Positions 2,876 through 64,000 of a stretch of 64,000 nucleotides of DNA are shown in pieces. The notes under the pieces are model-generated. The model saw only the letters and a program-made list of their open reading frames with translations. It did no database searches and was not told the DNA's origin. Positions within the stretch are counted from its first letter, which is position 1. Each line of letters starts with the position of its first letter. Position numbers and translations under genes: made by a program. Origin of the DNA: Thunnus maccoyii (lineage: Eukaryota > Chordata > Actinopteri > Scombriformes > Scombridae); assembly GCF_910596095.1 (NCBI RefSeq), contig NC_056551.1, positions 14,525,501 through 14,589,500 on the forward strand, in the 5' to 3' direction.

Positions 2876-2921
2876 TAACCCAACCGGTCTGTGTCTTCTG
2901 TGTTTGTGAAAACTGTCATAA

Positions 2922-2927
2922 AATAAA
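2922..2927 (+). other. Polyadenylation signal AATAAA, coiled-coil gene
   Basis: AATAAA, overlapping a second copy, lies about 50 bp past the end of the pyrimidine tract and is the first candidate poly(A) signal after the stop at 1736. Confidence 0.5.
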
Positions 2928-2939
2928 TAAACCTGTCAC

Positions 2940-7100: not shown

Positions 7101-10087
7101 GGACTGCAACCTCCCCTTGTAGCATATTTCGTTTTAACTTCTGTCTTCCTGGTCTTGGTCCGATATGTCCTTCCTCTCTTCCTCCCACAGCTTTCTCTCC
7201 ATCTTGCTCCCAAAATCTCCTCGTCTGTGCCGCTCTGCCTGTCTCGGATTCTGCTCTCTATCTCCTCCTCGCAGAGCCTGCTTCACCAATCAGCTCTCCC
7301 TATGTGACACCCGACCACAATAACATCATTCATGCGAGTGTTGGGAGGCTTGGCGTCAATCTCAAAGTTTGACATGCGGAATCCTAAATTAAGACTCTAC
7401 ACTGATGAATCACTGAGCTTCAGAGAAACATGTCAGTCATTGAGTAACTCCAGACAAAGCATGACATGACTGTTTCAACTGTGAATGACCCACACACACA
7501 CACACGCACACACACACGCACACAAAGCACAAAGACAGAGACTGTGCCAAAGTTTTGCTGACATAAATCATGACTTTTCTGATGTCGAGTTGATTAAAGG
7601 AATGCTTTGTAACCGAGCAGGAACAACAATTTTTGTACTCTGTTATGTAACTGAGAAAAGGAGGTATTTTTAAACCTGTCAGGTTAAATCAACTTTAATT
7701 TCAGCAGATTTTTCTTCTTGACAACAGTGAGAAACTAAGGACCAATATAGAAATAGATCATTTGGCCTCGTATGGCTCAGAGAGCCAGATTTGCTGACAT
7801 CACTGAATCTTCACGACTGAGGACAAGACAAGCAGCTCATCAGTTGCCAAAGTGGTTTTTAACAATCCAGGCAGTGTGGTACTTTGACAGTCTAATTTAT
7901 TCTATACAAGTCTGAGACACTGTAAATAAAGCAAATGTGCGGACGGGGTGACAATGTTGAAATAATCCTCTGTTTCTCTACATCGCTATAAACCATTATA
8001 GAATCAATTGGGCAGCGAGCATTTGGCAACAGCACAACCAAATAAGAAGTATCAACAGCAGCACATGAGATGGAAATCTAATCAAGAACTAAATTAACTT
8101 AAAAAATAATTTTCCATATGTACGCTTCTTTCGTGCAATGGAATTGATCATTATTTTGTGTGACACCTCCCAAAATATGATAACAAAATGTTTAACGAAA
8201 TAATTAAAAGCCAGTATGATGTGTAAAAAAGAGAGACATTGTTGTCTTGCTGGTATTTCCCCTCGTTGCTACTACTGAGTAGGATCATCCTCTGATTGAC
8301 GTCAATAGTAGCTACTGTAAGGTCACAGAGGTCAGAGGTCCCACTGACCAAGACAGTGGGAGTGAGAAATACAGTACGTCTGTATTTCTTTGTAAATGTG
8401 TTTCACCTCTCTGTATCTAGAGAACTTCAAATACATGACTTCTAAAAACAGAAAGATCTTACCTCTGATTAATTTTCCGGTCATCGTCACTTCCGAAATC
8501 CTGAAAGACAAAACAAAACAAGGCAGATGCTATAAAGAAAGGATACGATGTAATGTATAACTGCAGTTTAAAATGGGGAAAAACTGAGAGAAGAGTCAGA
8601 GAGGTTTTGACATTCACCTCGTGTACTTAAAGCAGCCATCTCTACTGGATTACTGAACAGAGACTACTTCACTGTGCACAATGAAGCGTTGTTTGAATCA
8701 TCTAGCGGCTGGCATTCATCATGAACATGATACATTATCGCTGTGTAATAGGATTTCTGAATGGACCTTGATTTATTTTTTGTTTAATCTGTAAGACATG
8801 AGGTAGTACAGTAGTGCAAATGGATGTTGAGCATCATGCGTGAGGATTATTAAAGTGTTCCAGCACCATCTGCTGGTACTTCCTAGTCAGTGTCGTGATC
8901 TCATCTGCTATGAATGTCCCATGGAACTGACACTTGAATAATTACCACCACCTTCAAACAACACAAAGTTCTGCAAAAGCACATCCAAACATCACAAACA
9001 TCTACTTTTCCTTCATGCCGGCTGCAGAAAGTGAAGGAAAAACATCACTGCTTATTTTTGTGCCTCGGTTCAGTCAGCCTACTTAAAAGGCGCATAATCC
9101 ACCTTCCTAAATCTAGAAACTGGAGCACTAACCCTGATGTTATAATTTCACTGGGATGTAAAATGTGGCACTGCTCCATATGTGAATGCTGACTTTGTTT
9201 TCTGCTGGTTGGGATTTAAATTCTGCTTCTCAAGCCTTAAACTCCTCTAAGTCAGTGTTACTTCTCATTGTTTCTGGAGCTAAACCTGACTGCAGTAACC
9301 TGACCGCAGTTTCCTAAAGATTTTTTTCACTAAGATGTAAAATATTGGACTAGTCTACAGACAATGAATACTGACTTGGTAGATTTTTCTATGGATGTGT
9401 TGCATACAAATGGCATTTCTCACAATCTATGACATGTCAGCATCTCACTTCACTTGCATCCCACATGTTTTCTCTGAAGATTTTTTCCCTCTTAGAGTTC
9501 ATCAACACTTAACTGAACCGTCCTGGGCCACAGACTGAACGCAATTCAAAGAATAATTGTTGGCATTCCCCTTTAAAAGACTCCTCCCCAGCATTGAGGC
9601 TGCATTACTGCAAATAACAGCCCAATAACAAGGAGGGAGAGCAACCTGAGTGCAACGCAGCAAATGTTTGTGCAGCAGGAAAATGAGCACTTTGTTCTGA
9701 CAGCTAAACCCCAGCAGGCCCCCCCCCACCCCACCACCACTACCCCCCACCTCCCCCCCTTCTCCCCTCCCGCTCTTGCAGGATTTTGTTTACAAATCCG
9801 CTGCCACAGTAGCCACAAACAAGACTCTGCTGGTAACAATGCAACAATATATCAAGTTTATGATACACACACAGCAATGACGGTTAACCCTTCCTGCAGG
9901 ATATTTAACACCATCCGGACTGTACTGATACGGGCTCCTGCAGGCGCATTCTCGGCGTTTCCTCACACCGTTTGCACAAAGACCGAGCCCCGACTTTTCT
10001 GCTTACCTCCCCCGCACTGCTGTTGGTCGTGCTGGCCGAGGATGCTGCACTGGGGGTGGGAGAGCGCTGCAGAGTCACCAGGGCCAT
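4153..10087 (-). CDS. ssh1: Slingshot protein phosphatase 1, first three coding exons (partial)
   Basis: Minus-strand exons: 10087-10007 (27 codons, MALVTLQRSPTPSAASS start, donor GAG|gtaagc), 8500-8463 (DFGSDDDRKINQ) and 4253-4153 (SLSESFFMVKGAALFLQQGG to HKHAG). Phases agree (0, 2, 1). The start peptide and the SLSESFFMVKGAALFLQQG block are hallmarks of slingshot phosphatases and closest to SSH1. SSH proteins dephosphorylate cofilin at Ser3 and so promote actin turnover; they bind F-actin and 14-3-3. The DEK-like and dual-specificity phosphatase exons, with the HCxxGxxR loop, are not in the window and must lie left of position 1. The start is fixed by the conserved MALVTLQ, and a CT-rich 5' UTR tract lies just upstream. 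Intron 3 is at least 4.1 kb and appears to contain the + strand coiled-coil gene. Confidence 0.9.
4670..5309. mobile_element. Non-autonomous DNA transposon (MITE)
   Basis: Imperfect terminal inverted repeats: aaaggggacgtattatgcac at the left end (about 4670) and, read in reverse complement, ttaaaggggacatatgcttt at the right end (about 5309). The ~600 bp interior has no transposase frame. Elements with this 'aaaggggacatattatgc' end are common in teleosts. It lies in ssh1 intron 2. I did not find a convincing target-site duplication. Confidence 0.65.
5310..8462. other. Rest of ssh1 intron 2, repeats only
   Basis: Contains the interspersed repeat at about 6297-6720 (listed separately) and a short CA repeat at about 7491-7525. 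A splice-donor-like site near 6905 was not supported as an exon. No other gene is seen. Confidence 0.5.
6297..6720 (+). repeat. Interspersed repeat, copy 1
   Basis: Shares a long, diverged stretch in the same orientation with about 59880-60195. Shared landmarks are gtttgacactagaggc, a gggggaaagtttctc block, acaagtgtgatgtggaaa, a ggatttctcaac block, and a tail near aaccatatcaaatacaaat. No coding capacity. Likely a short non-autonomous element family of this genome. Confidence 0.7.
9719..9771 (-). other. G-rich tract on the ssh1 coding strand (G4 candidate)
   Basis: The + strand is nearly pure C with A/T interruptions. The minus strand, which is the coding strand of ssh1, therefore has at least six runs of three or more G within ~50 bp, inside intron 1 about 240 bp from its donor. 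Confidence 0.6.
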
Positions 10088-10140
10088 GGTCGGTGGGCTG
10101 CAGCCGTGGAGGGCAGTAGAGGAAAGGAGAAGGAAGGGGA

Positions 10141-10159
10141 GTAGAGGAGAGGGGGGGGA

Positions 10160-10191
<32 letters not shown>

Positions 10192-10210
10192 CAGAGAGAG
10201 AGAGAGGAGG
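10141..10210 (-). repeat. (GA)n/(CT)n tract upstream of the ssh1 start
   Basis: A GA microsatellite with GACA interruptions starts 54 bp upstream of the ssh1 ATG (10087). On the ssh1 strand it reads (CT)n, so it lies in the 5' UTR or core promoter. Confidence 0.8.
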
Positions 10211-11187
10211 AAGAGCGCCTGTGTGGGAAGATGCGCCGCTGAGATTGTCTCTGTCACCGGGGAGAATATGCCTAGTCAGACTCTCATCCAACAGCACCTG
10301 ACTCCTGAGTCCAGGCGCTGCTCCCTTTCGGTCCTGCTCCGTGCGTCCTCTGCGGTTACGGGAGTCCTCATGAGCGGGAAGTCAGGAGAGATTCCCTCCG
10401 TTTGTACCGAGTCAGTAGACCCCGCGATTTCATTGCTGGTGCGCAGACAGACAAACAAAACACGGTGCGGGCTGCAAGCGGGGCAGAAATGACATGCAGC
10501 TTTGCCGGATGCCTGTGATTGGCTGGCCTAGTTTGCGTGTGCGCTGTCATTGGGCCAATGTTGTCAAGGTGACTGGCCAGACTAGGTACTCCCAAATACA
10601 AATGTTGATGAAATGATATTCTGCTCATGTTATGAAACGCAGCGAGGTTGTCATAATGTAGCACCATAATAATAGAACCACAATGCGTCTCTTATTGTGC
10701 ACATTCAACAAAATAAATAGAACCTAAAGCGGACTGAATGACTTTAATTGGCAAAAGGCACGTGGCTTCACATATAAATATATACAAGAGGTCATTTTTA
10801 TCCAAAATGTAAAAAATAAATGTTCAAGTCTTTTAAATACAAGTCTTAAACTGTATGCACAGTTTATCATAATTTTTCAAAATGTCCCCCTGCCGCTTAC
10901 CATGGCCTAAATGGAAGAGAGGGGTAAACAAACCAAAACAGAGGGACACCAGTCCAGGCACAAGTGTGCTTCCGTTCTCATTAGACATGGGCAGTAGGCA
11001 CTTAATTATCACCCGCCTGTAATGAGATCGTCCCCTGCTGTTCTTCACCCATCATCGCTCAGATCATTCAGTCCATCATTTAACAGACAACTGTGGCGTC
11101 TGCAGCAGCTTGGGAGGTGTCTTTTACATGTTTTCCATCCTTCCTGGTCGCTGGTCTACAGCTGGTGTAAGGAGTCTGTTGTACCAT
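10211..11187. other. ssh1 promoter side and svop 3' flank
   Basis: Sequence from 10211 to about 10500 is GC-richer with scattered CpG and fits the ssh1 promoter. From 10.6 to 11.2 kb lies the probable 3' UTR and flank of svop, both genes being on the minus strand. I did not find a clear poly(A) signal for svop. Confidence 0.45.
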
Positions 11188-20358: not shown

Positions 20359-20999
20359 CGTGCCATACCATAGTGTCTCTGGTTTGATGAATAAAATATT
20401 AAGCATTTTTAATTACTCAGGTACATTATCACTGTAAACCCTCAGTGCAGAGAGGTGAGGCCATGCATGAAATGAATACAAAGGTGAACCATTGTTTTTG
20501 TGTTATCATTAGGACTCGGTATCTGACCACAATAGTTATCAAGGATTGACTAAATTGTGTCCATTGTGGTGAAAATACTGAAAACTGACAGTTAATGCTC
20601 AAATTCTGAATCTTCTTGACTTTCTATACATTTTCCAAATTTTATGTGATTTAAAATATTGTTTCATCATACTTATATCACACCTTTATTATATTATACT
20701 GCATTTAATTTAGAAACCGTTATTTTATGGACTATTGTGTTAATACAACATTCAACTTTGACGCATTTGAAGAAAAAGTTGTTGTTTTTTTTGTTTGTTT
20801 TTTTGCATGAAGTGCGTTTATGCTCACAATAGGACCATAACTCAGAAATCAATGGCATGTACAATAAAATAAGAATTGGGAACAAAATAGCATGTGTGCA
20901 GGTGGTACTTTTGACTGGATTGGCCATGGACCAGTCCTATAACCGCGGTTGTCCCTGAGTGAGTGAGTGACTGAGTGAGTGATAAGGTTTCACCATTGG

Positions 21000-21345
21000 T
21001 CGGCCGGCCGTACAGGCGTTTCCTCATTGGCTGTTGTTCTTTCGAAATGAATCGGCGCGAGATGACAGAAGCGGAGGACAGCAGCAGTTTCCTTCTCCAA
21101 ACTTTGACGCTCTCAGACCCGATGTTAAATGCAGCAGTCGGTTAAACTCCTGTTTAGACAGACACGTACCAGCAGCGTCTCCTCCTCTACCGTCCAGGGT
21201 GATTCACTCTCCGGCTGCTGACAGCGCTGCCAGCCGGAGAGACGCTCCGCGGTGCGTAAATACCAGGACACAAGCTTCTTATTTCTCTGACGTTTTCACA
21301 TCACAAACAATAAACAACAGCATTAAAACACGAGTCTTGCAGGTA
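21000..21345 (+). promoter_or_regulatory. CpG-richer block, possible non-coding first exon
   Basis: Local CpG density is clearly higher than in the AT-rich surroundings, with an inverted CCAAT (attggctg) near 21027. A 32-codon open frame starts at 21047 (MNRREMTEAEDSSSF) but ends in TAA without a donor. A reasonable donor (TTGCAG|gtaaaa) follows at 21342. This could be a promoter for svop (minus), for an upstream myo1h leader (plus), or for a lncRNA. Confidence 0.3.
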
Positions 21346-22903
21346 AAACGTGCGACTCATGTAGGCTGTTATGTCAGTTTACTGTGGGGGAGCTGCTGCT
21401 TTGCAGGTGCGCTTGATTTGACTAACTGGGCGGAGATAAGCCTCCTGAATTTGCATCCAAAATGCTGTTTAAGTTTTCTTTTACAATTTCCACAGCACCC
21501 TCCATGTTCATCAACCAGGAAAGAGGCAGGAAAAAAAGGCGTATCCACAAGTAAAGCACCCCAAATATCCCCATCACTATGACAAAACACTCAATACAGA
21601 GTGAAAAACGAGAGACATCTGCAGTGAAACATATGAAAGAGCAAGGGGAGTTAACATATAATTAGAATAGTTAGAATTAAAATAAGTTCTCCTTCAATTC
21701 AAACATCCCAAGATATGAGTGGAAAGTATTGTTCTTACAACTGCATTCATAATCCTTTTTTGTTGACTCAAACGTTGCTTAACCATGTCATATGATATAC
21801 TACTTCAATACACATCAGGCCACTACAGAAAATAGCAGATGAACATTTAATATCCAGGTATTAACATAATAGACACTATCACTGACTATCCCTGTGACAA
21901 ATTGGCCACAGTTTCACGCATTGACCATACACGGTCCAGCCATATACTAGGTTTTGACCTATAGTCTTGTTTATTTCTTAGTGCAGATTTTTGTTACCCA
22001 ACACCTGCAAAGAATGTATAGATGTAAATGTGCCTTGTGGTAATTGACAAATACTTGTAAATATTATTCTGATATGTTGTGTTTACATGAGAGCTTAAAT
22101 GATACTCAGCATGAACAGTAATCATTAATAAAGGAAATTTGTTTTCAATGGATGCACTGTAAATCAGTAAGTATCACTGTGTGTGTGTGTGTGTCTGTGT
22201 GAGTGTTTGGGCTCTTATTCTAAAAGCAGTGGTCTTTTTTTAAAAAAGAAATTAATCAGTATTTGCATAATGGGTTACATTACATTAATGACGATTTTTC
22301 CAATGTGCTTCTCTCACCTTGTGTTTTGGCCTCTTCAGGCAGTAATGTAAGATGCCTTTGTTGATGCTTACAGGAAGCACAATGTTAAATTTTAAACAGA
22401 GGGCAACGTTACGCCACCCGCAGACATGTCACAGTTGACCCACAAGAAGAAGATGAGATAAAAGATCTAATTTTTATAAAATAGCAAAATGTATTTTAAA
22501 TATTTTCGGCAATTTGGTTATGTTCCTAACAGCTGATAGAGAATATACTAGTCTATAATCCATCAGTATATGTTATAGTATATTCAAATCAATTTTCATT
22601 AAAATTTTTATTCAAGTTTTATTTTAAAGCTATTCTATGTTGCTGATATTAATTATAGGAGTATATTTGGTTTGAATTTGTAATTTTTGACCACAATTTT
22701 TAGATGCGAAGAATCTTCAGTATTTTAATCCCAAACAGGTCGGATCATCCTGGCTCTGATGAGCAGTTAGTAATTAGTTTGAAATGCATCTGCCTAATCA
22801 AAGATCAGTAATTGAATACCTGTGCTGTAATTTTGTGGCGAGGAGGGTGAGGATGGGTCTCTGGGAGGATAGAGTTTCTACATCCTTGTATTACATACCT
22901 GCA

Positions 22904-47866: not shown

Positions 47867-48971
47867 ATGGGTGACCAAAATAAAGTATTATCCCGTCCCA
47901 TTTTCCGCCGAGATGTGAGCTGGGATAATTTCCCAAACTGGACACAGCCGAGCCGCATCTTTGCGCAGGATTTTGGCCTCCCACCTTTCTTGGAGCCTAG
48001 TGATCTGGACTGGTTAGACTGGGCAAAGAGGAGGCTGGCATCTTTCTCCTGGCCAGGGTACACACAGACTCCCATTCTGCCACCACTCAGGGGTCAGCAC
48101 CCTGCAGCGTTAGACCAAAGGGGTCTGAGACAACTGGCAAGCGGGGTGTCAGAGATCAGAACAGGGAACGACAGCTGGAAGATTAACTTGGACGTCAATC
48201 ACTTCTCACCTGAGGAGATTACAATCACAACCAAGGAGGGTTATTTGCAAATAGCAGGTATGCTGCACGTGCTTCTGTGATTGGCCAAGCTTTAAGTGAG
48301 ATTTGAGGAAAAATATGTGTCGAAACATGAGTAAAAGCATTGTAATATGTTGTAAATTCACCATTTTATGCCATGTGATTAATTTTTGTAATCATTTCTG
48401 TTCTTCATTCCAAGGAAATCATGAAGAAAGGCAGGATGAGCATGGATTGGTTTCAAGGTGCTTCACCCGGAAATACAAGTAGGTCGTCTCTGAGAATATG
48501 AGGAATTTTGACAACTGAAATCCATATATTTTCAGATGTCTGGGTGATTAACATCATTTCTATGTATGTCTATGTGTGAACTGTCCTACTAATGCTGACA
48601 AATAGTAAAACGTTGAAGACGAACATGAACACAGATGATAAGGTATCCTGAAGCAAGAATAGTTTTCATTGAAAGATAGAAAATGTTATCTGATTATTTG
48701 AGACTGTCAAAAACTATAAAAGCATCAATGAAATTGGTCTGCTCAGTTGTATAAGATGACAGGTATTTGCTTGTGTTAGTTGTTGATACGCTTTCTCTTC
48801 ATTTCTTTAAGGCTGCCAGAGGGGGTGGACTTACAGCATATCAGCTCCTCGCTGTCTGGTGATGGAGTCCTGTCTGTAGAGGCTCCCGTCCCCGGGACAT
48901 CCATCAGCGACCCAGCCAATGAGATGGTCATACCTGTTCAGATGAAAGAGAAGCAGGATGGTGAAAAGTGA
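47867..48971 (+). CDS. hspb1: Small heat-shock protein, HSPB1 (HSP27)-like
   Basis: Three exons (47867-48257, 48415-48478, 48812-48971) join in phase to 204 residues, the size of vertebrate HSP27. The N-terminal arm has the WDPF-like SWDNFPNW and SWPGY. The linker has SGVSEIR. The alpha-crystallin domain (~103-185) has [28 protein letters not shown] and the conserved SRCFTRKY arginines, followed by [15 protein letters not shown]. The C-terminal anchor is MVIPVQ (IxI/V-type). Such proteins form oligomers that hold unfolding proteins in solution under stress. Two introns at these places are typical of HSPB1. The neighbour taok3 would predict HSPB8 by human synteny, but the sequence reads as HSPB1-type, so it may be a teleost lineage paralogue. 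Start chosen at the first ATG after the TATA box. Confidence 0.88.
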
Positions 48972-50998
48972 AACCAGAGAGCAAAACTCGAAACTACAAT
49001 CAGATGTAGCCCAAGTTGTGTAGAAAACCTTTGTGGCATGGCTTAAAAAGAAAAACTAGTTTAGTTTGGGATAACTGACTAAATGTGATTCACTGTAATA
49101 ACAGGCTTGTTTTTCTGCTATGAGACAACATCTAATACTGTAATGTATCATCACCATGTCACAGTTACCTTAAAACTCAGTCATGAAATACAGAGCTGAC
49201 TTAGTAGATAAGGAATTATTTTTGCTCGACAGCACTTGGAAAGGGTTAAACATGACCTAGAATTTCATGTAACAATTGTTTCATATTTCATGCAGTTTTA
49301 ATGTCTTCATTATATAAAAAATACATGTCAGATGTTGTTATTCATATTATGCTATTGAATATTCTAAGATGTGTCCTGAAGCTACATTTCACAGCTCCAC
49401 AGTCTAGTTCTCTGACTGAGTTTTTATCATTGAAAGCTACACAAGGAACATTAGCTGGACATCTAAATAGAACCTGATCAATGAACTCAGCTTCAGTTTT
49501 TCACATGGCACACCCATGTGACTTTGGAAGATGGGGCTTTGGAGATTATGTCTGACAATGGATAACATTTTTTAGTGTCCTGGATAGTTACTGACTATTT
49601 ACATATTAACAGGTTATTTACTGTATGACAAATAGATACATGAAACGTATCTGGCCTCTGTATAACAGGGCAGAAAGTTAGAAAAATAATAAGTTGAGTT
49701 GAATTTTATTTTGCTTTTGAAGCAAAGACAGCACATCTGTAGTATAGATTAATTGTGTTTGTTTTTACTGAAAACTGTATATTGATGTCTTGAATAGCAT
49801 GAAGTTGTTCCTGATATCATATAATTAATGTGTTAAACAGCTTCTGCCATATAAAAACATGAATATAATTTTCTTATCTTGTGTCTTTTGTTACTGACAC
49901 CTTTTTGGCAGATTGTAAAATCATCTATTGCTCTATTTCTCAAAGCATGATGAAAATGTTCCACAAGAGGGCAACGAAATCCTGTTTACTGCAATATTTA
50001 GACTCTGTGTCTCATTTCCTGTTATGTCAACAGTATCATTTTTTAAAGTTTATCAGCAATTTCTCTTGAAGACCTTCAAGCAAAGGAGATCTTTCTAATC
50101 AGGTGTTAGATGATTTCAACACCAAATTAAGGTCCTAAAAGATTTGCACATATTCTCAAACAGTATATATTGCACCAAAAGTCTGTTTTAAACTCACTTT
50201 ACATGTAGTAATGTTCCCAGATGTGGTTTTCCACAAGACTTGTGATGTTAAATTTAAAGCAAACACACAGCAGCAGCAGTAGCCTGAAGCTGGATGTAAA
50301 AAAGGTATTTAGAAAGTTGGAAATTACACTGATGTACAGTAACAGCTTAATCTCTGGAAATGCAATGGAGGTTGAAAGGTGCCGGAATAAAAACCAGGTG
50401 GTGAGCTGAGCTGATCAAGGCCATGTCACTTAAAGGTAAACAGTGACATCCAGTGTTTGAACTGGGTAATACATGGTAACATAACTAAGTTACTGTATCT
50501 ACTGTACGTCATCACTTGGAATGAAGCAATGATGGAAATAACTGTTGAAAATACAGCAAAAATACAGATGATTTTAATAGAAATACATTCATGTTATTGG
50601 TTACCTTCTTGGCTTGATCTGTTGATTATCCAACTAAAGGTTGGCTTTAATATGCAAATACTTAAAAGCAATTTGATGAGGTAAGTAACAGCTGATTCAT
50701 TAAATGTTAGTATACAGTGTAGAATGGCAAAGTAAGTGATCAATAGAAAACAGAAAAGTAGCTGCCCAGTCGCTTTTTCATAGAAGCAGAGAATCTAACC
50801 ATGTAACCACTGGCCAAATATCTTCTCAAACTGACAGAAGAAAGATGTACAGATTCTTTAAGGGATGCTGCCAAATTGTCTCTTCACAGCAATCTTTTGA
50901 GGTTTATTGTATTTTTTATTATAATACACTGAATACGTCCTTTTTAGGAATTCAGGCCTTCAGTGCTGAAATGTTCCTGTTCTTGCTTTGGTTTGTCA

Positions 50999-51004
50999 AT
51001 AAAG
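50999..51004 (+). other. Candidate poly(A) signal AATAAA
   Basis: Canonical signal 2 kb after the hspb stop codon; it may serve a long 3' UTR or be incidental. An earlier AATAAA occurs near 50386. Confidence 0.3.
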
Positions 51005-51409
51005 ATTCAAGCCAGCAGGGTGGAAATGTAACACCGAAGATTTATATGGGATGAAAGTCTTTGCATGACCAAATCATTTTTTCTTTCTCCCTTCTTTCAT
51101 TTCTTTTTTCCCTTTGTTCTTCCTGACCCACAGTGGGCTCTTTACCAATAATTAATTGTGAGTCAGTTTGGATAATGAAAACTTAAAAAAGCTTGAAATC
51201 ACCCCAGACCTCTCAGGCCTTCAAAAAACACCTTCAGAGCATGCCTTATGAGTAAAATTCACAGTATTACAGTCCATTTTAATGAGTATACACTTGTCTA
51301 TACAAGTCTTCTAGATCTATAGGCTAAATTGAGATTCATGCAAACTAGATAAAGTAAAAATGTCTGAGGAAAAATGCCTTCGGCCTGGGCAAAATTACGA
51401 TTTTATTAG

Positions 51410-51770
51410 GGTGTTGCTATAGGTGGTTGGTAGGTGGTTGGTGGACTGTTAGGTGGTTGCTATGTGGCTCCTAGGATGTTTCAAGTATTGTTCTCAATAT
51501 TTGACTAAGTAGTCATTAGACTGTTGCTAGGAGGTTTCTGTAGTACTTTGAATGTACTTTCTGGCAGGGTTGTCAGGGCATTTCCAGGTGGCTACTAGGT
51601 GGTTGCTAGGGTGTTCTGCAAGGTTGCCAGGGTTGTACTAAGTGGTTCTCAAGTGGTTGCTATGGTGTTCCAGGTGATTTCAAGGTGGCTGGTATGCTGG
51701 ATGAAGTGGTTATCATGGTGATTTTGGGTGGTTGCTAGGGAGTACTGTATAGTTGCTAAGGCATATTTTG
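51410..51770. repeat. Degenerate minisatellite (ggtggttgctagg)
   Basis: Many diverged copies of a ~15-25 bp unit such as aggtggttgctagggtgttc, with irregular spacing. Confidence 0.75.
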
Positions 51771-53202
51771 TGTTCACAGTAGTCATAGAAGTATTAATAG
51801 TGCTAGTGGTAGAAGCAGTAGTAGTAGTGATGACAGTGCATTAGATTTATCGATACATTCAGCACCATGGACAGAGACAGAGAGAGTGATTTTTTTTAAT
51901 GTTTCAGCACCTTGGAGAGAGACGCTGCATTTAAATGATTTTCTCTGCTGTCCTCTAGCGGTCATATAGGCCTAAACTACCGACGGTATAATGGCAGAGT
52001 TTGTCCCTAAGTCTCTTCATGTCGTCATTATCGAAAAATACAGGTGATGTTCTCAGTCCACACAGGAAAAGATTAATATGCGTATTAAGTTGATCGGTCT
52101 GGATCATTTCTCTTGAAAGAACTTTTTTTTTCTCTCTCTCAGAAACGATAACACGTAAAACTGTTCTATTTTTAAATACAATGACGTTTTAGTATTTTAA
52201 AAACGAGAATATAAACGTGCTATTATGTTTAGCAAGTAGCAGTAAGTGGTCACAGGGGATTATACAAATATTATTGAAATATTAATGAAACATACTACCT
52301 ACCACTAATAATAATATTAATATATTTACAATATAACACTATATATATATATATACATATATATGATTTTTACAAACACTGATTTCCATGTATGGTATCT
52401 AGAAATATTTTAACATAAAGTAGACATCGTTCTTACCATAATAGTTCATTTCATTATCGATATTTACTATTTCTAAAAATCATGTGATAGAGTCTGATGC
52501 TTAATAACTTTAGGCTTGCTGAGATGTGCCTGTAGTATTGCGGTGTCTCTTTAAAGGAAGGGGGAGTGTAGAAGAGGGACAGAGAAAAGAGATGAATAGA
52601 AGGCACCAGAACCACCTACCATGACCAAGTGCGCTGTAAATGTAGGACAGAAATTCGAGTGGAATACAAACGGATCATCAAGCGACATATTCGAGGGAAA
52701 ACCATGTTTGGATGTGCCTTATCTGATTCAAATATTTTTAAATATGGTACCACATGCGATCATGGGAACACAGGAAAAGTATTTTTCTTCCCAAACATTT
52801 CTTGCATTTTGAAACGGAAAAGAAGAGTGGCAGTAAAATATATCCCTGTGCTATCTTTCTCCGATTATCAATGGTAGGCATTGCATAATTCACCCTTATC
52901 CACCGGAGCCATTTGTTTCCTCCTCTTTGGGAAGAGGGGGACGCCAGAAAAAAAAACCCGACTACATTCAGTTGCTGCCTTCTCGGTGGTGCCTGCAATT
53001 GTTTGGCAATGCCCTTTTCTCTCTTAGGAAGGACTTGCAGACAGTAGCGGGGGAACAAGCAGAGGAAGGATGCATTTAACGCTGGATGTGTGCTGCATTC
53101 AGGGAGATTCGGCAGTAATAGCAGCTATAGCAGAAACAGCGAGTGCGGAGGGCCTGGGAAGCACCCAGCCCCACTATCTCCTCCTTTTCCTCCCCCCTGC
53201 AG

Positions 53203-56200
53203 GACCATGCTTGCGTGAGGGATGAGGCTGTGCACAGGGACACCAGGCCAGAGCTGCGGCCTACTTCTCACAAGAGCCGGTCTCTCGACTGCAAGATCAG
53301 TGAACACATTGCCACCATCAAATCAGCATCTTTGGTACGCAGCTCCCTCTCTCCACCATTTGCATAAAAAATACGTATGTGTACGCGCGCGCGCGTGTGT
53401 GTGTCAGCGTGTACGTGCGTGCATGTGTGTGTGTGCGTGTGTGTATGTGTGTGTGTGCGTGCTGGCGGCGGGGGGTGAGGAGGGGAGGGAAGGGGTGTCT
53501 GTGTTCTCAGCTGTACATCTGTAGTCATGGCAACCAGATCCTGTTAATGGATGTCATTTTTTCCATCCTCAGCTTCCCTCTCTGCCTCTGCTTTTATGTG
53601 TGTGTGCATTGCATTTATATGTATTCCATGTAAATCTCTGCCTGCTGTTATTTTACCAGTGAGATTTTGTGTTTGTCATAGATTGTAAGGTGTATTTCCA
53701 CATGTTTTCTCAATAGTCACCATAAAATGTTATTGCACAAATTGGTCTTGAACCTAATATTGACATTATATTGATACATGCTTATTAGAGATGACACTGA
53801 GGTAACTGATTGATTAACATGTTGCTTGGCATTATAAGAAGTTACTCTAATCAAGAATATAAATGGGATTAAACAGCAGACCCTTTCTATGTTGATGAAC
53901 TTCACCTCTATTGTGTGACAGTGTTGCTGAAAAGCACTGATATTGTTAGCCTTCACCCTTGTTAAGTTCTTTGGTTATAGAGGATGTGCTAGTTTTCTTT
54001 GAAAGACATTTGTTTGCCACTCTACTGTATGTGGTCTCTTTTTAACACAAGGCCATGGCCCTTGACTTTCCAGCTCTCTATTTCTTTGTGCGTGTGTGCG
54101 TCAGTCCTGGCGGTTGTTTCTTTCTGCTTGCTCTGTTTCTTTTACTTCCTTCTTCCTGTGTTCCTCTGTCTAGGTCATCAGGTAGATCCAGGAGCATGAG
54201 CAGGACTTTGAGCTGCGGGAGCAGATGTCTGGGTATAAGCGCATGCGGCGGCAGCACCAGAAGCAGCTGATCGCCCTGGAGAACAGGCTAAAGGCCGAGA
54301 TGGATGAGCATAGGCTCCGGCTGCAGAAGGAATTAGAGACACAAGCGAACAACACTTACATTGAGCTGGAAAGACTGGCTAAACGCCACGTTGCTCAAAC
54401 AGACAAAGAGGTAGAGCCTCAACAGCAGGTGTTATTTGTGAATGAAGTTGAAACTAAGGAGTGATGTCATTCACTTCAAGCCAAACAGTGTCCTTATAGG
54501 CATTTTTGTCAGTAAATAGATCAATAAAGGGTGATCATTTTCATGTCTCCTCACAGATGAAGTCAGTTGCAGCTGAAGAGAGGAGGATCCAGCAACAGAT
54601 TGTTGCCCAGCAAAAGAAAGAGCTGACTACTTTCTTAGAGAACCAGAAAAAGGAGTACAGGCTTTGCAAAGACAAGATCAAAGAAGTAAATATGAAACAC
54701 AGTTAAAGCACAGTTTATTACCTCATACATTATATATGTACAGACTCCATTCACTCTGTTTGTTCTGTTATTTTTTTGTTTTTCATTTGTTGATGTGTTA
54801 TAGGAGATGAATGAAGACCTGTGTACACCCAAGGAGGAGAAGCAGGAGCGTCTGTCCAGGCACAAAGAAACAATGCAGCGCTCTCAGGCTGAGGAGGAAG
54901 CCCATTTGCTGGCCCAGCAGAGGCTGGTCTACGACCGGAGCTGTAGGGCCCTCAAACACCGGAGTCTGGTCAGGAGGCATGAGTTTGAACAGGAGCAGCT
55001 GAGAGAGGTAATGTGTTTTCCTGACATTACATAACATACTGTATTGAGTAACCAAGACTGCGAAGAAATTCACAAAATCAGCAGAATTTTGGATAGTGTT
55101 TTCAGAAGATTTTTGGACAGCAGAACATTTTGGCAAATTATCATTGTCAGTGAGGATATGATGATCAAATCAAGACCTTATTTATCAAAAAACTTAGTTC
55201 CCTGATATGGATGAATCTGGTTGATTAAAATATCAGGGATAAGGCTGCAACTAACAAATATTTTTTATTATAAAACAGAAAAAACAGCAAAACTTGATAT
55301 TGGGAACATTGAGAACAACAAAGATTTGGGGTTTTCCCAAGCTTCTCTTCTCCAGTGGGAAAGGGTCTGAACAAGGCAGACTTCAGGACAGCCCACAATA
55401 TTTTGACTAAAATAGGTCATTCCCACCCCTACGAAACATTTTCAATCTGGACCTTAAGAAATGATCATCCTCAGCTGTGTCTCATGCCACCATGGAACTG
55501 TTTAATACACAATCTCTCACTGATAAATCCCTCCTCATACATGACCACATCTTGGACAAAGAGCTTGACTTCATATGCCTAACTGAAACCTGGCATAAAT
55601 CAGGAGATTACTCTCTGCTTAATTAGGCCTGTCCTCCTGGCTATAGTTACATGGAAAAAACCTGCAGCACTGGTTGTGCTGGTGGTTTAGCAATCATACA
55701 CCGGATTGAACTGAAACGGTCTCCCCTGCCAATGCCTGATCTTTCTTCTATTGAATGCCTTACTCTAAAATGTAAACCTCTGTACTCCATGATGGTGCTT
55801 CTCATCTATGGCCCCCAAACTCATCTTTCCTACCTAAGATACACGACCTCCTCACCTCACTCTGCTCCATGTCAACCAACATTGTCATTGTTGGTGATAT
55901 GAATATACATGTCGACAACCCTTCTGTCATTTGCAGTGGAGTCTGAATGAGTGTCTTGGCCTGAAGCATTATGTTGATGTCCATACTCACACCAAGGGGC
56001 AAACACTTGACCCGGTCATCATTAACTCCACCCCCATCAATAACCTACAGGTCTATGATATGGGTGTGTCTGACCACAAGGTGGTCTCAATGGCTTTGAC
56101 ATTCCTGTCACCCCCTACTAAACCCAAGCATCAAATGCTTTTTCGGGACCGGAAAAGCACGGACCCAGCCATCATGACTATGGACCTCCAGCACATCACT

Positions 56201-59200
56201 TTCCCAGCTTCTGCATCAGTGAATGAACTGGTGGAGCTCTAAAATACATCTCTGAGCAGTGTCTTTGATCTTCATGCCCCTGTCAATACGTGTGAGGTCA
56301 ATTTTTCGAGCTCCGCTCCCTGGTTCACTCATGACTTGCAGAAAATAAAAACAGCTGGACTTGTCCTGGAACGATGCTTCAGACACTCTGGGCTCGCTGT
56401 CCATAAACTGGCCTTCCGTGAACATCAAAGGGCTAACTCAAAGTCCCTTAAAGATGCTTGGTCACAGTTCTACTCCAATCTAATTAATAACAATCCTGGC
56501 AACCCTAAGCATCTTTTTTTCCACCATAAACTATCTCCTGAAGCCCCAATCATTTTCCCCAATTGAGGCTACAGAAGAGCAATGTAACAGCTTCATTGAC
56601 TTTTTCGGAGCCAAGGTCAACAACGTCCACTCTCTGATGTCCAGCTCTTCCTCTCTGCCTCCTCTGGCCATCGACCCTCTGTCTGGGAGCTCGCCATCTC
56701 TACTCCATTTTACTGGTGTCAGGTAGAGCCACATTGAGGAAATCCTCAAGAAGATGAAACCCTGTACTTGTGCCCTGGATTCTATTCCCACAGCTCTGCT
56801 CAAATTATACATCCCCAGTCACAGCTCCCTGATCACCCAAACTGTCAAGCTCTCCCTTCAAGCTGGTAGTGTTCTATCTGCCCTCAAGGTCGTAATCATC
56901 TGCTCCCTCCTCATGAAGCCCACCCTGGACCCAGAAGTTCCTGCCAGCTACAGACCTATCTCCAACCTCCCTCTCCTGTCCAAGGTGTTGGAGAATGTGG
57001 TTTCTTCTGAGCTTCAGGGCCACCTTAAACACAACAACCTATTTGAAAAATTTCGGTCGGGTTTTCATTCAGCACACAGCACTGAAACAGGTCAGCTCAG
57101 GGTTGTGAACGACCTTTTTCATGGCAGCTGATGCAGGGTCCCTTTCTCTCCTGATTCTCCACCTGAGTGCTGCATTTGACACTGTGGATCAAACTATCCT
57201 CTTAGAGTGCCTCCACACCAGCACTGGGCTGTCAAACTCTGCACTTAAGTGGTTTCAATATATTTCACTGGGTTGATGCAGGTCTAGATTGCTCCCTGTC
57301 ATCTGTGGTGTTCCGCAAGGATCGGTTCTTGGCCCCACCTTGTTTACCCTCTACATGCTCCACCTTGGACATGTCATCATTAGATATGGGATGTTTTTTC
57401 ATTGCTATGCTGATGATACCTAGCTGTACATCAAAATTGCCCCAAGCCCTTCTGCAGCCATGTCATGTCTCAGCACCTGTCTTAAGGAGATAAAGGCCTG
57501 TATGTGTACAAATTTCCTACAATTAAACAGCAAAACTGAAGCTCATTTTATTGGTACTCCACATCAGATTCAGTCATCCCCCATACCTCATCTCACCTTT
57601 GACGGCCAGGACATCCCCCTTTCCTCCTCAGTCACAAATCTGGGTGTTAGGTTTGACCCTGAGCTGATTTTTGATGACCATATAAGACATCAAGGCAAAA
57701 CCTCTTTCTACCATCTCAAAAACAACTCTAAACTCTGCCCCTCTCTAACCCTGTCAGATGCCCATGCCTTTATCTCCTCAAGACTGAACTACTGCAATGC
57801 GTTCTTCACAGGGATCCCTGGCAGGAGCATCCAGAAGCTTCAGTACATTCAGAACAGTGCTGCCAGGATCCTGATGAGAGTGCAAAAGCACAAACACATA
57901 ACACCAATTCTGTTTTCATTGCACTCGCTCCCTATCTCCTTTAGGACAAAGTCCTGCTACTCACATATAAATCCATCAACAGACATGTGCCTCCCTACCT
58001 ACAGGAACTGATCATACCACAAACCTCCATGCGCACCCTCAGATCTGCCAGCAGCTTGCTCCTCCGGGCCCACAGTACTAAGCTCCACACCACAGGGGGT
58101 CGAGCCTTCTGCTCTGCTGCACCACACTTATGGAACAGCCTTCCTAACCATCTGAGGGCAGCACAGACCCTAGTCTCTTTTAAAAAAAAGCCCTAAAAAC
58201 CTTTCATGCAGGAAGGCTTTTTCATCTTAACTCTTATTACTATTTTTTTTATGTTGTGTGTTCTATGTTATTAACACTGGGGCACTTTGAGTTGAATGAA
58301 AAGTGGGGTGCAAATTAAATGTATTATTAGTACTAAGATACATAGCTCTGGTCATTCATGTTAATCTAAACAGATGCTGGTACTATTTTAGTCTCCACAA
58401 AGGAAATTAGCCAGCCTTGCAAAATGGTATAAATCAGATTGTGATTTCTTTGTCCGTAAAAAATGACATTACATCAAACTTCTTGTCCCAGGAGTTGAAC
58501 AAGAAGAGGACCCAGAAAGAGATGGAACATGCCCTGATGATCCGGCAGGACGAGTCCACCCAGGACCTGGAGCGGAGGCAGCTGCAGATGCTGCAGAAGC
58601 TACGTATTGAACTCATGCGGCTACAGCATCAGACGGAGCTCGAAAACCAGGAGGAGTACAATGGCCGGCGGCAGAGAGAACTACACAGGAAACACACTCT
58701 GGAGCAGCGGCAGCAGCCCAGAAACCTCAAGGTGCCTGGAAATTTTCACTTTGGCTTGTCATTCGTCTGCTGAATGTTATTTAGTGAGTTGATATCCAGT
58801 AAACCTCATTTTAAGAAGTTTTAAAAGTTTGTTTATAAAAACAATGTGACATGTTTTAGAGGATTACATAATATAGATGAAAGACTGAAATGTACCTTGT
58901 AGTCTTATTCTAAATTGCCTAGTAGAGAACTGTAGAAAAAACACTAATCATGAGAACTGCTTCTTCCAAAATATTACTGTGATATCCATTCTTTCACAAA
59001 TTTAAATATTCTCTCCTCCTTTTATCTATTAATTGACAGTATTTTTCAGTTTGAGCTACAGTGGAAAGAAGTGAAAGCTCAATTATGCAAACTTAACAGT
59101 TTAAGGCTTAATGAGCAAATTATTTATACCTCTACATCCACTTTAAAATGATTTTCTCTACACTGAGAGGGTGGGTTGAGAGCAAGGTGAACATGTATAC

Positions 59201-62200
59201 AGGTTTGTGTCTCATGTACTGAGTGCACAAGCAAAATTAATCAGTCAGATTAAGAGAGATGTTGAAAGAGTCATATAAATAACTTTTTATTACTGTTTAA
59301 TTGCTTTACTATTTATGAGAATCATTTTTCATCCATGTTTAAGTCAAATGAACCAGCACCAAATCTGGTTAATGCAATATTTGGCTGACTTTTGATTTGT
59401 GACATGGAAGAACAGGAAACTAGCAGCAATGATTTGTCTTTTAACCCTCCGCAGACGCTGGAGATGCAGATCAAGAAACAATTCCAGGATACCTGTAAGG
59501 TGCAGAACAAGCAGTACAAAGCTCTTAGGAACCATCAGCTGGAGGTCTCTCCCAAAGGTGACCATAAGACCATCTTGAAGGGCCTGAAAGAGGAGCAGAC
59601 ACGCAAGTTGGCCATACTGGCCGAGCAGTATGAGCAGAGCATCAACGAGATGATGGCATCACAAGCGGTATGAGGATGCTGAAGCATCTTGTCTTGAATA
59701 GCAAAAGTGGGCCCTGTTTATCATTTGTATGTTGTGTATTTACTTGTGCAACACATTTGCTCTTCACATCAGCCGACAGCAGAGACAATATGTGGATCTG
59801 TTCTTGTCTCCACTCAAATCTGTGTTTTACTTATTTTAACTTCACTTGGATGTTTGAGCTTCACTGTTCAGAATGATGTACCGTATGTACAGTTTGACAT
59901 TAGAAGGCTGTTTTCACATTCATCTGCTGAAGGGGGAAAGTTTCTCACCTAAAATCTGAGTTTCAAATATGTTCGTATGAGCTTGATTTTGTGACAATCA
60001 CAACTAGTTTGGAAGCCAACCATGGGCCAGTATGCAATTTACTCAAGTGTGATGTGGAAAAGAAGATTTTTTGCACATTCATACATTTTGGATTTTTCAA
60101 TAAGGGAGGAGTAGATGTAAGAATTTTTAACTAGTTAATTAAACTTCCTTGTGGAAAAACCATATCAAATACAAATTATTATTCCAAGCACTTTCACTCT
60201 GCTGAATAATGATGGCGATCCGTTTTTTCTGTTTACACAACACTTTGATCCAGAGCAAAACATCTAAACTTGTGGCATGGTTGTCATGAATTAAGCTGTG
60301 GATATTTATGGTCCACAGTGGCTGATTCCTAAATGACACTGAACATCCACTTGTGCACAAGAAATATTAAAATCCAATATTTATTAGGGGTCCAATTAGG
60401 AGTCCAACCATGTTGGTGCTTGTATGCCTAATTAGCAAAGTGGAAATTTACTGAGTACATGTATGCTCCTCTGAGGATGAAGCCTTTTTTATTTTGACAC
60501 TATGAAGTTTTCTCCAGCGCCACCCTCAGGCCAAAATGTGAACTTCACACACAAGATATCTCGTAATTAAAGGGTAAAAATTATTTTTGCTCACCTTTCT
60601 CACTTACAAAACCAAGAGTTTAGAGTCTATCAAAACACTATTAAGTCTATCAAGATCAAGTCACCACATCAGGTTTGTCCCGATCTGCTTCTCAGTACAC
60701 TTCCCTTTATAGCTGCAACTAATCTGTATTCCCAGTTATTATTTAATTACTGATTGTTGCATGAGTATAATGGTAGGTATATTATATTATTAATCTATAG
60801 AAGTCTTATTTGCAAGTTCCAAAAAATTAAAGATTGAAAGATTCATATATTCAAACCTCTTTAATGCTGTTTAATGCTACAGTGGTTTTTGTAAATCATT
60901 TTCCTAAAATTGTTGGTGCGTTGTTTGATAAATTATGCCCAACCTTAGGTTGTTGTTAATGTGTTTGTAACTGCCTCTGTCTTGCCTGGTCTCTAGATGC
61001 GATTAGATGCAGAGCAGGAAACAGAGTGCCAAGCTCTGAAGCAGCAGCTGAAGCAAGAGATGGAGCTACTGGACGCCTACCAGAGAAAAACCAAGTCACA
61101 GATGGAGACCCAACATGAGCGAGAGCAGCAGAAACTTGAGCAGAAGGTCTCCATACGCAGAGCCCACCTTGAACAGAAGGTAGGTTTAAGATCGAAGCCG
61201 TGCTTAATTTTTTTAAAATTAATGCACCATAATACCATACTGTATAAAAATGACCTGAAGACCTTAGGATAGGAGGGCAGATATAAAAATGTCTAGAAAG
61301 AGACTTTATAAGTTTGCAACACTATTACAGTAACAGTTTTGTTGGGAGATTTGTCAATTTAGTGCCATGTTAGTGACCCCCAGAGGCTGTACTTTTCATT
61401 ACAACCACAAAAGTGTTGCAAAGAACAACAAACTCAAAATTTTGACCTTACCAGTAGTATGGCTGAAAATGTACATTTTACCACAAAGACCTCAGGTCCG
61501 TGACTTCCTGGTCATGTTTTCCAATGAATTGCAGAGTTTGCAGTTAGGAATGCAACTCTTACTGGTTGACTGGGATATCTACAGTGTGTAGGGAATACAG
61601 CAATTTGAAATTGGAAGAAAACATAGACAAAAATGCAAAAATAAATACATGAAAAAAGGAAGTTTGTTCTTTGGGGTGTGATAGAGGAAGAGTAATGGGG
61701 TCATTTAAAAGGTTAATTCAAAAGTCTTTATTAAGCCTTGTGTTTTGTTGGCATTGTCTTTACTTCCTTATTGTTTGGGGTTCGACTTAGACCCTAATGC
61801 TGTATGTGCATGAAAAGTATTTTGTAGTATATTATATTATTTTATAACTTTTATTTAATCAGATAGCCTCATAGAGATCAAGATTTAACAAGAGAGGCCT
61901 GAGAGCAGCAGAGGAAATAAAACTGAGATAAGACACCTGACAAAAACAGCGACAGTCACACACAAGTATGTACAGACAGCATCAGAAACAATTACAGACA
62001 CTTATAAAAGAGGTCCCAAATTAAAAGTCAAAATTCATCCAATGTGATGAGACTTTCTGACTTTCAAGTTTTAATGTTCTTTGCAGTACTGGAAGGCAGT
62101 ACTCTCAAGTTCAGCGTTAACTCATGAAGTGGTAGCCCCTCCCTGTGCCACAAACTGAGCTTGAACATTTGAGGAAGGCGACAAATACAGAAATGACCAT

Positions 62201-63398
62201 GAAACATTGTTATTACACCAAAGAAATATTTCACTCATATGTCATATGAGATATGCATGAATAAATATATATTCCTTTTGTTTGACAAAAAGTCTTTCAC
62301 AGACAAAAAAAAAGCATTTTGGTGATGGTAAAGTAAAGCTGCCACAATGTTCACAATGGAAAGGGTGTCATCTACGAGGGAGCATGGGAAAGCATACTGT
62401 ATTTATTTTTATTTTTGGGGCAATTTATGGTCTATTAGTGAGTCAACAGTTGAGACAGGAAGTGAGGAGAGAGAGATTAGGAACGACATGCAACAAAGGG
62501 CCCCAGCTCAACTCGAACCAGGGACATTTCATTGTGGTCTGTGTCTTTACCCACTGAGCTCCACTGATACTTTCAAATCCAGGCTGAAAACACATCTTTT
62601 TTCGGTTTACTATGACCTTTCCTAATTTCACCGCCTGGGAACCCAAAACATGAGCTGTTTTCCTCCTTGACATGTAGCTACCCCAACCCTGTTAGGGTTA
62701 TATGATCTCTGTTTTAAAATTACTAACCTCAACCTTGTTGTAATATTAACATTACTACCTGTGTATCAGTGTGTGAATGTGTGTGTATGTGTGTGTACGT
62801 TTACATGGAATATTATGTGCTCCTTTTTCCTGTTGTTGTTGTTATTGACTTGTAAGGTGTACAGAGACTCTCTAGGACTTTAAATAAACTGAAGTTGAAG
62901 TTGAAGTTAAACCCCTACTATAAGTCACAGGGGTGCCTCAGCATACTGTATTATAAATACTCAGTACATGTGGTAATCTACTTTTTGGATTATTTAAGTT
63001 TTCTTTTGGAGAAAAACGTCAATGGAGCCACTATAGCGGTCAGATGCATCCTTTGGGAAGCTTGAATACTAAATGCATGAATGCTACATTTTAATGGAAT
63101 CTGGAGAGTAGCCTTTGTGACGTCTGTGAACCAAAGTGTTGGAGTTAATGACCAATAATGCTCCGTTGCTGGCAGGGCAAAACATAATCTAAAATTTCAT
63201 GACCATATGAAGAAATATCATGTTTTTCCATCGCAGATTGAAGAGGAACTGGCCGCACTTCAGAAGGAACGTACTGAAAGGGTCAAGCACTTGTTGGAAC
63301 GTCAGGACAGAGAAATGAATGCTTTTGACACAGAAAGTAGAAGCCTCGGCTTTGGAAGCCTGGGATCTCTGGACTTCCCCAAAGAAGACAACAGATGA
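53203..63398 (+). CDS. taok3: TAO kinase 3 C-terminal coiled-coil part, kinase domain absent
   Basis: Eight exons: 53203-53334, 54174-54410 (or 54192-54410), 54557-54685, 54804-55007, 58492-58731, 59455-59667, 60997-61179, 63237-63398 (TGA). All are phase 0. The protein matches the TAOK C-terminal half. Landmarks are [90 protein letters not shown], and an ending [11 protein letters not shown] like the TAOK3 terminus (not TAOK1 or TAOK2). Full-length TAOK3 is a ~898-residue Ste20-type MAP3K acting in JNK/p38 and stress signalling. No kinase exon lies upstream, where susd2 and hspb intervene. At 54183-54185 an in-frame TAG replaces a family Gln. An acceptor AG at 54190-54191 would skip it in frame, or translation could start at MSGYKRM (54225). 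It may be a kinase-less paralogue, a decaying copy or a misassembly. Confidence 0.8.
53385..53463. repeat. Alternating GT/CG purine-pyrimidine tract
   Basis: cgcgcgcgcgtgtgtgtgt followed by interrupted GT runs, ~50 bp downstream of a taok3 donor. Such alternation favours Z-DNA. Confidence 0.85.
55243..55290 (+). mobile_element. hAT-like MITE end fragment
   Basis: aaggctgcaactaacaaata resembles the terminal sequence of the element at 19070-19372, truncated after about 50 bp. Confidence 0.5.
55340..58335 (+). mobile_element. L2-like LINE, 5'-truncated and inactivated
   Basis: Lies in the 3.5 kb taok3 intron 55008-58491, same strand. Broken frames in order: endonuclease pieces ([13 protein letters not shown], 55571-55610; [12 protein letters not shown], ~56068-56103), reverse-transcriptase pieces ([20 protein letters not shown], ~56938-56997; then CYADDT*LY with a stop right after the YADD catalytic motif, ~57403-57430) and the C-terminal block ([15 protein letters not shown] to [18 protein letters not shown], 57780-58170). 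The 3' end is gcaaattaaatgtattatta, typical of L2-type LINE tails. Several frameshifts and stops show it cannot move itself. Confidence 0.85.
56754..57131 (+). pseudogene. LINE reverse-transcriptase fragment (broken)
   Basis: A 125-codon fragment carrying the N-terminal RT region ([41 protein letters not shown]). Downstream RT parts ([28 protein letters not shown], CYADDT) lie in other frames or beyond stops. Confidence 0.8.
58732..59454. other. taok3 intron, nothing recognised
   Basis: AT-rich 723-bp intron without recognisable elements. Confidence 0.5.
59880..60195 (+). repeat. Interspersed repeat, copy 2
   Basis: Second copy of the repeat described at 6297-6720, same orientation. It is shorter, lacking the ~80 bp around the 6535-6610 part of copy 1. 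It lies in the taok3 intron 59668-60996; the rest of that intron is unremarkable. Confidence 0.7.
62425..62562 (-). mobile_element. tRNA-derived SINE fragment, - orientation
   Basis: On the minus strand it reads gctcagtgggtaaagacaca (A-box-like), then ggttcgagttgagc (B-box-like), then tgttgcatgtcgttcc and a ctctctc run with cacttcctgtc. Same family as 45085-45190. Confidence 0.65.
62562..62905 (+). mobile_element. 3' end fragment of a LINE
   Basis: Starts with an ORF2 C-terminal remnant [11 protein letters not shown] and ends in a gaagttgaagttgaagtt tail. A ~340-bp 5'-truncated copy in the last taok3 intron, abutting the inverted SINE. Confidence 0.6.
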
Positions 63399-64000
63399 AA
63401 GTGGATTTATCTTTAGAGGACAACATATCCGTGCCCTTTTCATGTCCACTTGGCCGTTTGTCACATCCACGGTGACGAAGCTGGATAACTTTCTCTATTG
63501 CTTTCTTCTCTCTTAGATATTGCATCTTTGAATCGAGGTGTTACGTGCAATGAGAACTTCTTTTGTGAAACTTGAAGGGTTGGGGGTGGGGGGAAGTAAA
63601 ACAAAAGAATCTACAACAACATGTCAGTAAAAATCAAAGCTAGTCAGTGTAACTCAAAACTTATGTGTTTAAAAATAACAGACTCTTTCCTCCATGCCAT
63701 TTTCTCCTTTTGGTATGAATTGAATAAATCAGGAAATTTTAGTAAAATGGGCACTTTGATATGTTTAAGTAGAAACCCATCATGTTCATACGATGCTTAA
63801 TGTGTGTGTTACATGGAGGGACATTGTGGAATGTGAGCTGCGGACTCCCCCGTGGTGTTAAGCTGCTTTGTCTTTTTTTTTTTGTTTTTTAAAAATCTCA
63901 TTTTATTTTTGTTTTATTTATTTTTACTTACTCAGAATGTGAATATTACTGTATGGGGTCACTGGATAAAGTCAGAGTTTATTCATTTTTTAAAATGTTT
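63399..64000 (+). other. taok3: taok3 3' UTR and flank
   Basis: Sequence after the TGA at 63396-63398. A canonical AATAAA lies at 63723-63728, giving a ~340-bp 3' UTR. T-rich sequence follows to the window end. Confidence 0.6.

Follow-up and report, generated by a model that had tools for sequence, protein, structure and literature searches.

Our analyses indicate that one taok3 copy of Thunnus maccoyii has lost its kinase half, a loss that is real and well defined as far as one assembly shows. The copy lies in the window, i.e. the whole stretch of 64,000 nucleotides that was analysed (contig C19, 14525501-14589500, of a 782-Mb assembly in 54 contigs), where eight exons code for TAOK3 sequence from the last part of the linker through the coiled coil to the C-terminus. 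In our view, held with a confidence falling just short of even, it is what is left of the second teleost taok3 ohnolog, a C-terminal half persisting today as a coil-only gene; a very recent pseudogene is a close competing explanation.

In the scenario that we favour, the exons upstream of exon 9 would have been lost, most simply by one deletion that would have joined DNA near hspb to the intron preceding exon 9, and the coil half would have held its frame under weakened purifying selection until now or very recently. Transcription might start from a CpG-retaining stretch at 51.7-53.1 kb, with exon 9 and the start of exon 10 serving as 5' UTR, and translation from an internal ATG of exon 10 would then yield a coil-only protein of up to 438 residues. 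Towards full-length TAO kinases, such a protein could serve as a partner, a localising factor or a competitor. That the copy is a working kinase-less TAOK3 coil gene in this full sense, with its own promoter and internal start and a role as partner or competitor of TAO kinases, is a claim that we hold more tentatively, at somewhat below an even chance.

Exon structure and the kinase-bearing sister gene

All eight exons lie on the forward strand between 53203 and 63398, in phase 0 and with AG/GT ends (Table 1), and 495 codons plus a stop form a single intact frame across them if exon 10 is begun at 54186. A first-pass annotation, made from the sequence alone, had recognized these exons as the C-terminal TAOK3 half from the linker onward, in agreement with our results; the start that it gave, 48972, is the base after the hspb stop codon, and the taok3 exons start at 53203. 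The C-terminal half shows the exon structure of the TAOK family, and the coiled coil is so named by likeness to that family. Searches of the coil against PDB and Pfam returned no match, nor did Rfam at window 47-64 kb. One piece of the LINE-like remnant in intron 12 was scanned against Pfam, with an unrelated sub-cutoff match as the sole result.

Table 1. Features of the taok3 coil locus, in window positions
Feature	Position	Strand	Description
CpG-retaining stretch, candidate promoter	51651..53150		longest window run with CpG o/e >=0.5 in 500-bp frames
Exon 9	53203..53334	+	linker end (to ATIKSASL), phase 0, no in-frame ATG
First four codons of exon 10 from ancestral acceptor	54174..54185	+	GTC ATC AGG TAG, in-frame stop
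Exon 10, coiled coil	54186..54410	+	IQEHEQ...QTDKE; ancestral start 54174
Exon 11, coiled coil	54557..54685	+	phase 0
Exon 12, coiled coil	54804..55007	+	phase 0
LINE-like reverse-transcriptase remnant in intron 12	55400..58200 (approximate)	+	ORF pieces read by eye
Exon 13, coiled coil	58492..58731	+	phase 0
Exon 14, coiled coil	59455..59667	+	phase 0
Exon 15, coiled coil	60997..61179	+	phase 0
Exon 16, C-terminus and stop	63237..63398	+	...LDFPKEDNR*
AATAAA, possible poly(A) signal	63723..63728	+	3' of stop codon

The search of the whole assembly for a second full-length taok3, which had been suggested as a check, found a copy with a kinase half on contig C9 (8098437-8132928). The exons of its kinase half are open and were read by motif (MPSSTRKGVPKD, HRDVKAGN, MAPEVIL, ERKPPLF, FVDYCLLKIPQDRP and VRELD, followed by the serine linker). 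Over exons 10-16 its coil is 78.2% identical to that of the window copy, which is 60.7-63.4% identical to the coils on C13, C6, C18 and C20; by its identity to C9, the window coil is thus nearest to TAOK3 rather than to TAOK1 or TAOK2. Identity between the two copies is 48% in exon 9. In the protein tree the window copy groups with C9, and the split from the other four is supported 100/100. The names taok1/2/3 are applied to these loci provisionally, after the human sequences.

The gene order around the two copies is similar as well. Nearest upstream of the window taok3 lies an HSP20-like gene, then a VWD/AMOP (susd2-type) gene and a myosin-head gene, all on the same strand, a domain scan that agrees with the previous naming of hspb, susd2 and myo1h as unrelated upstream neighbours. 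An exon at window 39424 considered as part of the myosin gene was rejected as such, since its AMOP domain assigns it to the susd2-type gene. On C9, susd2-type relatives are found at 7.58-7.59 Mb, hspb-type relatives at 7.85 and 7.86 Mb and taok3 at 8.10-8.13 Mb, all on the forward strand save one of the two hspb matches; in the window, susd2, hspb and the taok3 coil follow in the C9 order within 25 kb, or about 35 kb with the myosin gene. Since the C9 hspb and susd2 relatives are just 32-71% identical to the window genes, homology of the block is likely rather than proven, and the best relative of the window myosin exon lies outside it, at C9:19.7 Mb. Judged from tree and gene order, the window copy and the C9 taok3 are probably an ohnolog pair of the teleost duplication.

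Two repeated structures were observed towards the start of the window. A coil-rich protein exon at 615-1181 has a 98% identical copy 8 kb upstream (C19:14518039-14518605) and a diverged copy (59-67%) 15 kb upstream (14510771-14511393), pointing to recent local duplication, and a long degenerate repeat array occupies 1657-2952, with a GC skew of -0.88 at 2001-3000 (C over G) and all three forward frames open for about 390-430 codons.

Search for the kinase half

None of nine kinase queries matched anywhere in the window (tblastn, E up to 0.5), so that the earlier statement that the upstream 4.2 kb hold no kinase exon can be extended to the whole stretch. At the same threshold the C9 serine-linker query gave no match to the window, while the exon 9 query did; in another search the best window match to the serine-rich linker exon (NSLGSNHSIPS type) had an E of 0.45, at chance level. 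The window copy therefore presents neither the N-terminal STE20-type kinase domain nor the serine-rich linker exon of the TAOK family.

Genome-wide, coil halves fall into six clusters, namely the window, C9, C13, C6, C18 and C20 (47 of 47 candidates scored), against five TAOK clusters of kinase halves, the sixth not being found. A query built from C9 exons, covering the later half of the kinase, the VRELD exon and the serine linker (E up to 10), was scored on 150 of 175 candidates. All five of its exons matched in every one of the five other clusters and none near the window; the five linker matches were all outside the window. The first-half query (95 of 95 candidates scored) gave the same five clusters, with three of five exons matched in all five, one matched in C9 only (86% identity) and a 15-residue exon that alone matched nowhere. 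The recovery of kinase exons at all five other TAOK loci provides a positive control for these searches. Together with the kinase-bearing sister on C9, they support the previous proposal of a teleost paralogue reduced to its C-terminal half; the scaffold or dominant-negative role proposed along with it is putative.

Matches to the kinase queries elsewhere on C19 (six at 1.9-27.5 Mb, one at 13.1 Mb) were rejected as other kinases, with 34-50% identity, and neither the local tblastn nor the two genome-wide searches placed a TAOK kinase exon on C19 near 14.5 Mb. A match in the downstream flank (40% over 25 residues, E 0.35) was taken as chance. The same flank carries, about 4.4 kb downstream of the window (L042:3506-3970, forward strand), an exon resembling LIF/OSM-family cytokines (Pfam LIF_OSM, E 2.9e-5), followed by a minus-strand gene that is tescalcin-like by eye and of which the piece scanned gave no Pfam match. 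On contig C3 (15290521-15290619, minus strand), a stray 33-residue coil match, 76% identical and with a stop, corresponds to the exon 12-13 border of the query and is a possible further TAOK3 coil fragment.

The alternative that the kinase exons exist and are here missing or misjoined, as an assembly or haplotype artefact, appears unlikely to us. One assembly was examined and fractionated loci are easily misassembled, but the window contains no N, the assembly that lacks these exons here shows them at all other TAOK loci, and those of the sixth copy were found in none of the 54 contigs. Moreover, the only tandem array at 48.9-54.2 kb is a short GT/GC array (53393-53462), and an independent in-frame TAG in exon 10 fits a real loss.

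Candidate promoter and translation start

In the paralogues on C9, C13, C18 and C6, exon 10 starts 12 bases 5' of the conserved (I/M)(H/Q/K)EHEQ, and the four codons in between are sense codons (V-T-K-Q, V-T-R-E, V-T-R-Q and L-T-R-Q, in four of five paralogues); the acceptors were assigned by inspection rather than cDNA, and the C20 junction is unreadable. The window copy retains the ancestral acceptor (TCTAG), after which the fourth codon is a TAG at 54183-54185. The previous claim that the coil exons keep frame and splice sites is thus valid from 54186 on but does not hold for the first codons of exon 10, since splicing at the ancestral acceptor includes this stop codon. An alternative acceptor, GGTAG|ATC, lies in frame 12 bases downstream of the ancestral one. 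As exon 9 also has no in-frame ATG, production of a coil protein needs an internal start or the shifted acceptor. An internal ATG in exon 10 opens a frame of 438 codons; this first in-frame ATG sits in a weak context, with three out-of-frame ATGs ahead of it in exons 9-10, and the third in-frame ATG, in the context GAGATGG, opens 413 codons.

The same stop codon bears on the notion that the coil exons are merely the 3' exons of read-through or fusion transcripts starting at hspb. This gene lies on the same strand 4.2 kb upstream, but it has its own stop codon (48969-48971), and phase-0 entry to exon 10 at the ancestral acceptor runs into the TAG, which makes such an origin very improbable.

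A start of transcription close to exon 9 had been suggested at 52.55-53.2 kb. That suggestion gains some indirect support from the longest CpG-retaining run of the window, at 51.65-53.15 kb, which consists of single-copy DNA. CpG o/e is highest in the frames 52001-52500 (1.14) and 51901-52400 (1.03), against a window median of 0.29, with small CpG counts at the peak (11 and 13 per 500 bp) because the DNA is AT-rich. The neighbouring G+C-richer 53.0-53.5 kb includes the GT/GC repeat. Besides itself, 51801-53340 has 18 genome matches, none over 101 bases, and a young transposon was rejected on this basis. Non-methylated islands in zebrafish overlap 55% of transcription starts and predicted CpG islands 17% (PMC3583005), which makes CpG retention a sensible yet indirect sign of a promoter. 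We consider the stretch at 51.7-53.1 kb a candidate promoter of the truncated gene on its base composition; other possibilities are an enhancer or the former promoter of a deleted gene. In a comparison of window 48972-54185 with C9:8089001-8123075, exon 9 was the only DNA similarity, so that a retained ancestral taok3 promoter is neither supported nor excluded.

The next-longest CpG-retaining runs, at 9751-10950 and 20551-21700, are possible promoters too. The latter may serve a transporter-like gene on the minus strand (about 12.6-16 kb), presumed to be svop-like, whose two pieces gave no Pfam match.

Evolution of the coil and comparison with known systems

Downstream of 54186, 1353 coding bases (451 codons) contain no stop or frameshift, and the splice dinucleotides are intact. 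With its introns present and a single nonsense codon, at the edge of exon 10, the copy does not resemble a decayed or processed pseudogene. If a transition bias of 2.5 is assumed, together with indel/substitution ratios of 0.05-0.15, the absence of lesions limits the time without constraint to at most 0.020-0.012 neutral substitutions per site (95%).

Exon 9 and the final 11 sense codons of exon 16 were excluded from the rate tests, and gaps replaced the opening 27 codons of exon 12 in C13 as well as, in C20, the initial 16 codons of exon 10 and the final 2 codons. When a neutral phase was added to the C19 branch of a codon model, lnL was -5352.44, -5352.12, -5352.23, -5353.62 and -5356.41 at d=0, 0.01, 0.02, 0.04 and 0.06, i.e. 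lower than without such a phase by 1.2 at d=0.04 and by 4.0 at d=0.06. The profile allows a neutral phase up to d of about 0.04; a short one is neither required nor ruled out, d=0.01 fitting very slightly better than none. The dN/dS check that had been recommended was partly informative: omega=1 on the C19 branch is 12.1 lnL units worse than a free omega, whereas the estimate itself, 0.019, is not to be trusted, as synonymous sites are saturated (terminal branches about 1-4) and omega consequently averages the time before and after kinase loss.

The window coil is the fastest of the six, with a protein branch of 0.229, whereas C9 has 0.031 and the other tips 0.030-0.056. Tajima counts give 44 residues unique to C19 and 11 unique to C9 (chi2 19.8), and the codon-model branches give a milder ratio of about 2.5 (4.11 vs 1.63); the coil has therefore evolved 2.5-7 times faster than its C9 sister. 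Among sites invariant in the other five coils, 31 of 263 changed in the window copy, compared with 8 of 240 in the equivalent count for C9, and 20 of the 31 changes are conservative, where 42% would be expected in the absence of selection (P=0.009). About 11 changes at the 263 sites would follow from a neutral phase of d=0.02 (0.70 missense per mutation, 3 bases per codon), so that much of the acceleration arose while the frame was still protected.

These results bear most directly on the possibility of a very recent pseudogene, an ohnolog that remained intact until lately, lost its 5' half, gained the TAG and is decaying without a product. The stop at a retained acceptor, an exon 9 that has no in-frame ATG, the failure to find the kinase half and the accelerated coil all agree with it, as does the best-fitting neutral phase of about 0.01, though this is hardly better than none. 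However, the otherwise undamaged codons and splice sites imply a very young death, and the changes at invariant sites exceed the neutral expectation and lean towards conservative replacements. We consider this explanation somewhat less probable than not. A coil-only gene is our preferred reading, against which stand the TAG at the start of exon 10, which is what early decay would look like, the weak context of the first ATG, the fastest coil of the six and a CpG peak that may not be a promoter.

If expressed, a coil-only gene would mean that TAO coil and TAO kinase have been separated naturally, would reveal functions needing the coil alone, and would make it possible to test directly whether the coil by itself localises full-length TAO kinases or holds them in check. 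Should the locus be a very recent pseudogene, it would offer a clean case of a duplicate gene at the first step of decay. In literature under CC0, CC BY or CC BY-SA, no report of a kinase-less TAOK3 was found among the matches listed.

The closest known system is TAOK3 (TAO3, a STE20-type MAP3K) itself, as represented by the C9 paralogue. Both loci have the eight 3' exons, all in phase 0, a coil alike at 78% of residues and the C-terminal ending LDFPK(E/D)D(N/Y)R, but C9 has an N-terminal kinase and a serine-rich linker, whereas the window copy has neither and carries the TAG at exon 10. TAOK1 reportedly remodels the plasma membrane. Slik is a Ser/Thr kinase of the STE20 group, from a subfamily other than TAO. 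Its C-terminal coiled-coil domain acts without the kinase domain, at the plasma membrane (PMC12000455), and TAO coils likewise sit in the C-terminal half, the C-terminal region of TAOK2 binding microtubules (PMC7589832). By analogy, a coil-only TAOK3 could localise full-length TAO kinases or compete with them; the coil-only form of Slik is an experimental construct. Loss of parts in duplicated kinases is already known, e.g. in the MadBub family, where BubR1/Mad3 paralogues lost kinase function after duplication and teleost BUBR1 underwent duplication and fission (PMC5204127). As in the window, a multidomain kinase was duplicated and the copies retained different parts. In MadBub, however, the kinase occupies the C-terminal end and essential motifs are known from the remaining part, whereas any function retained by the window copy is putative.
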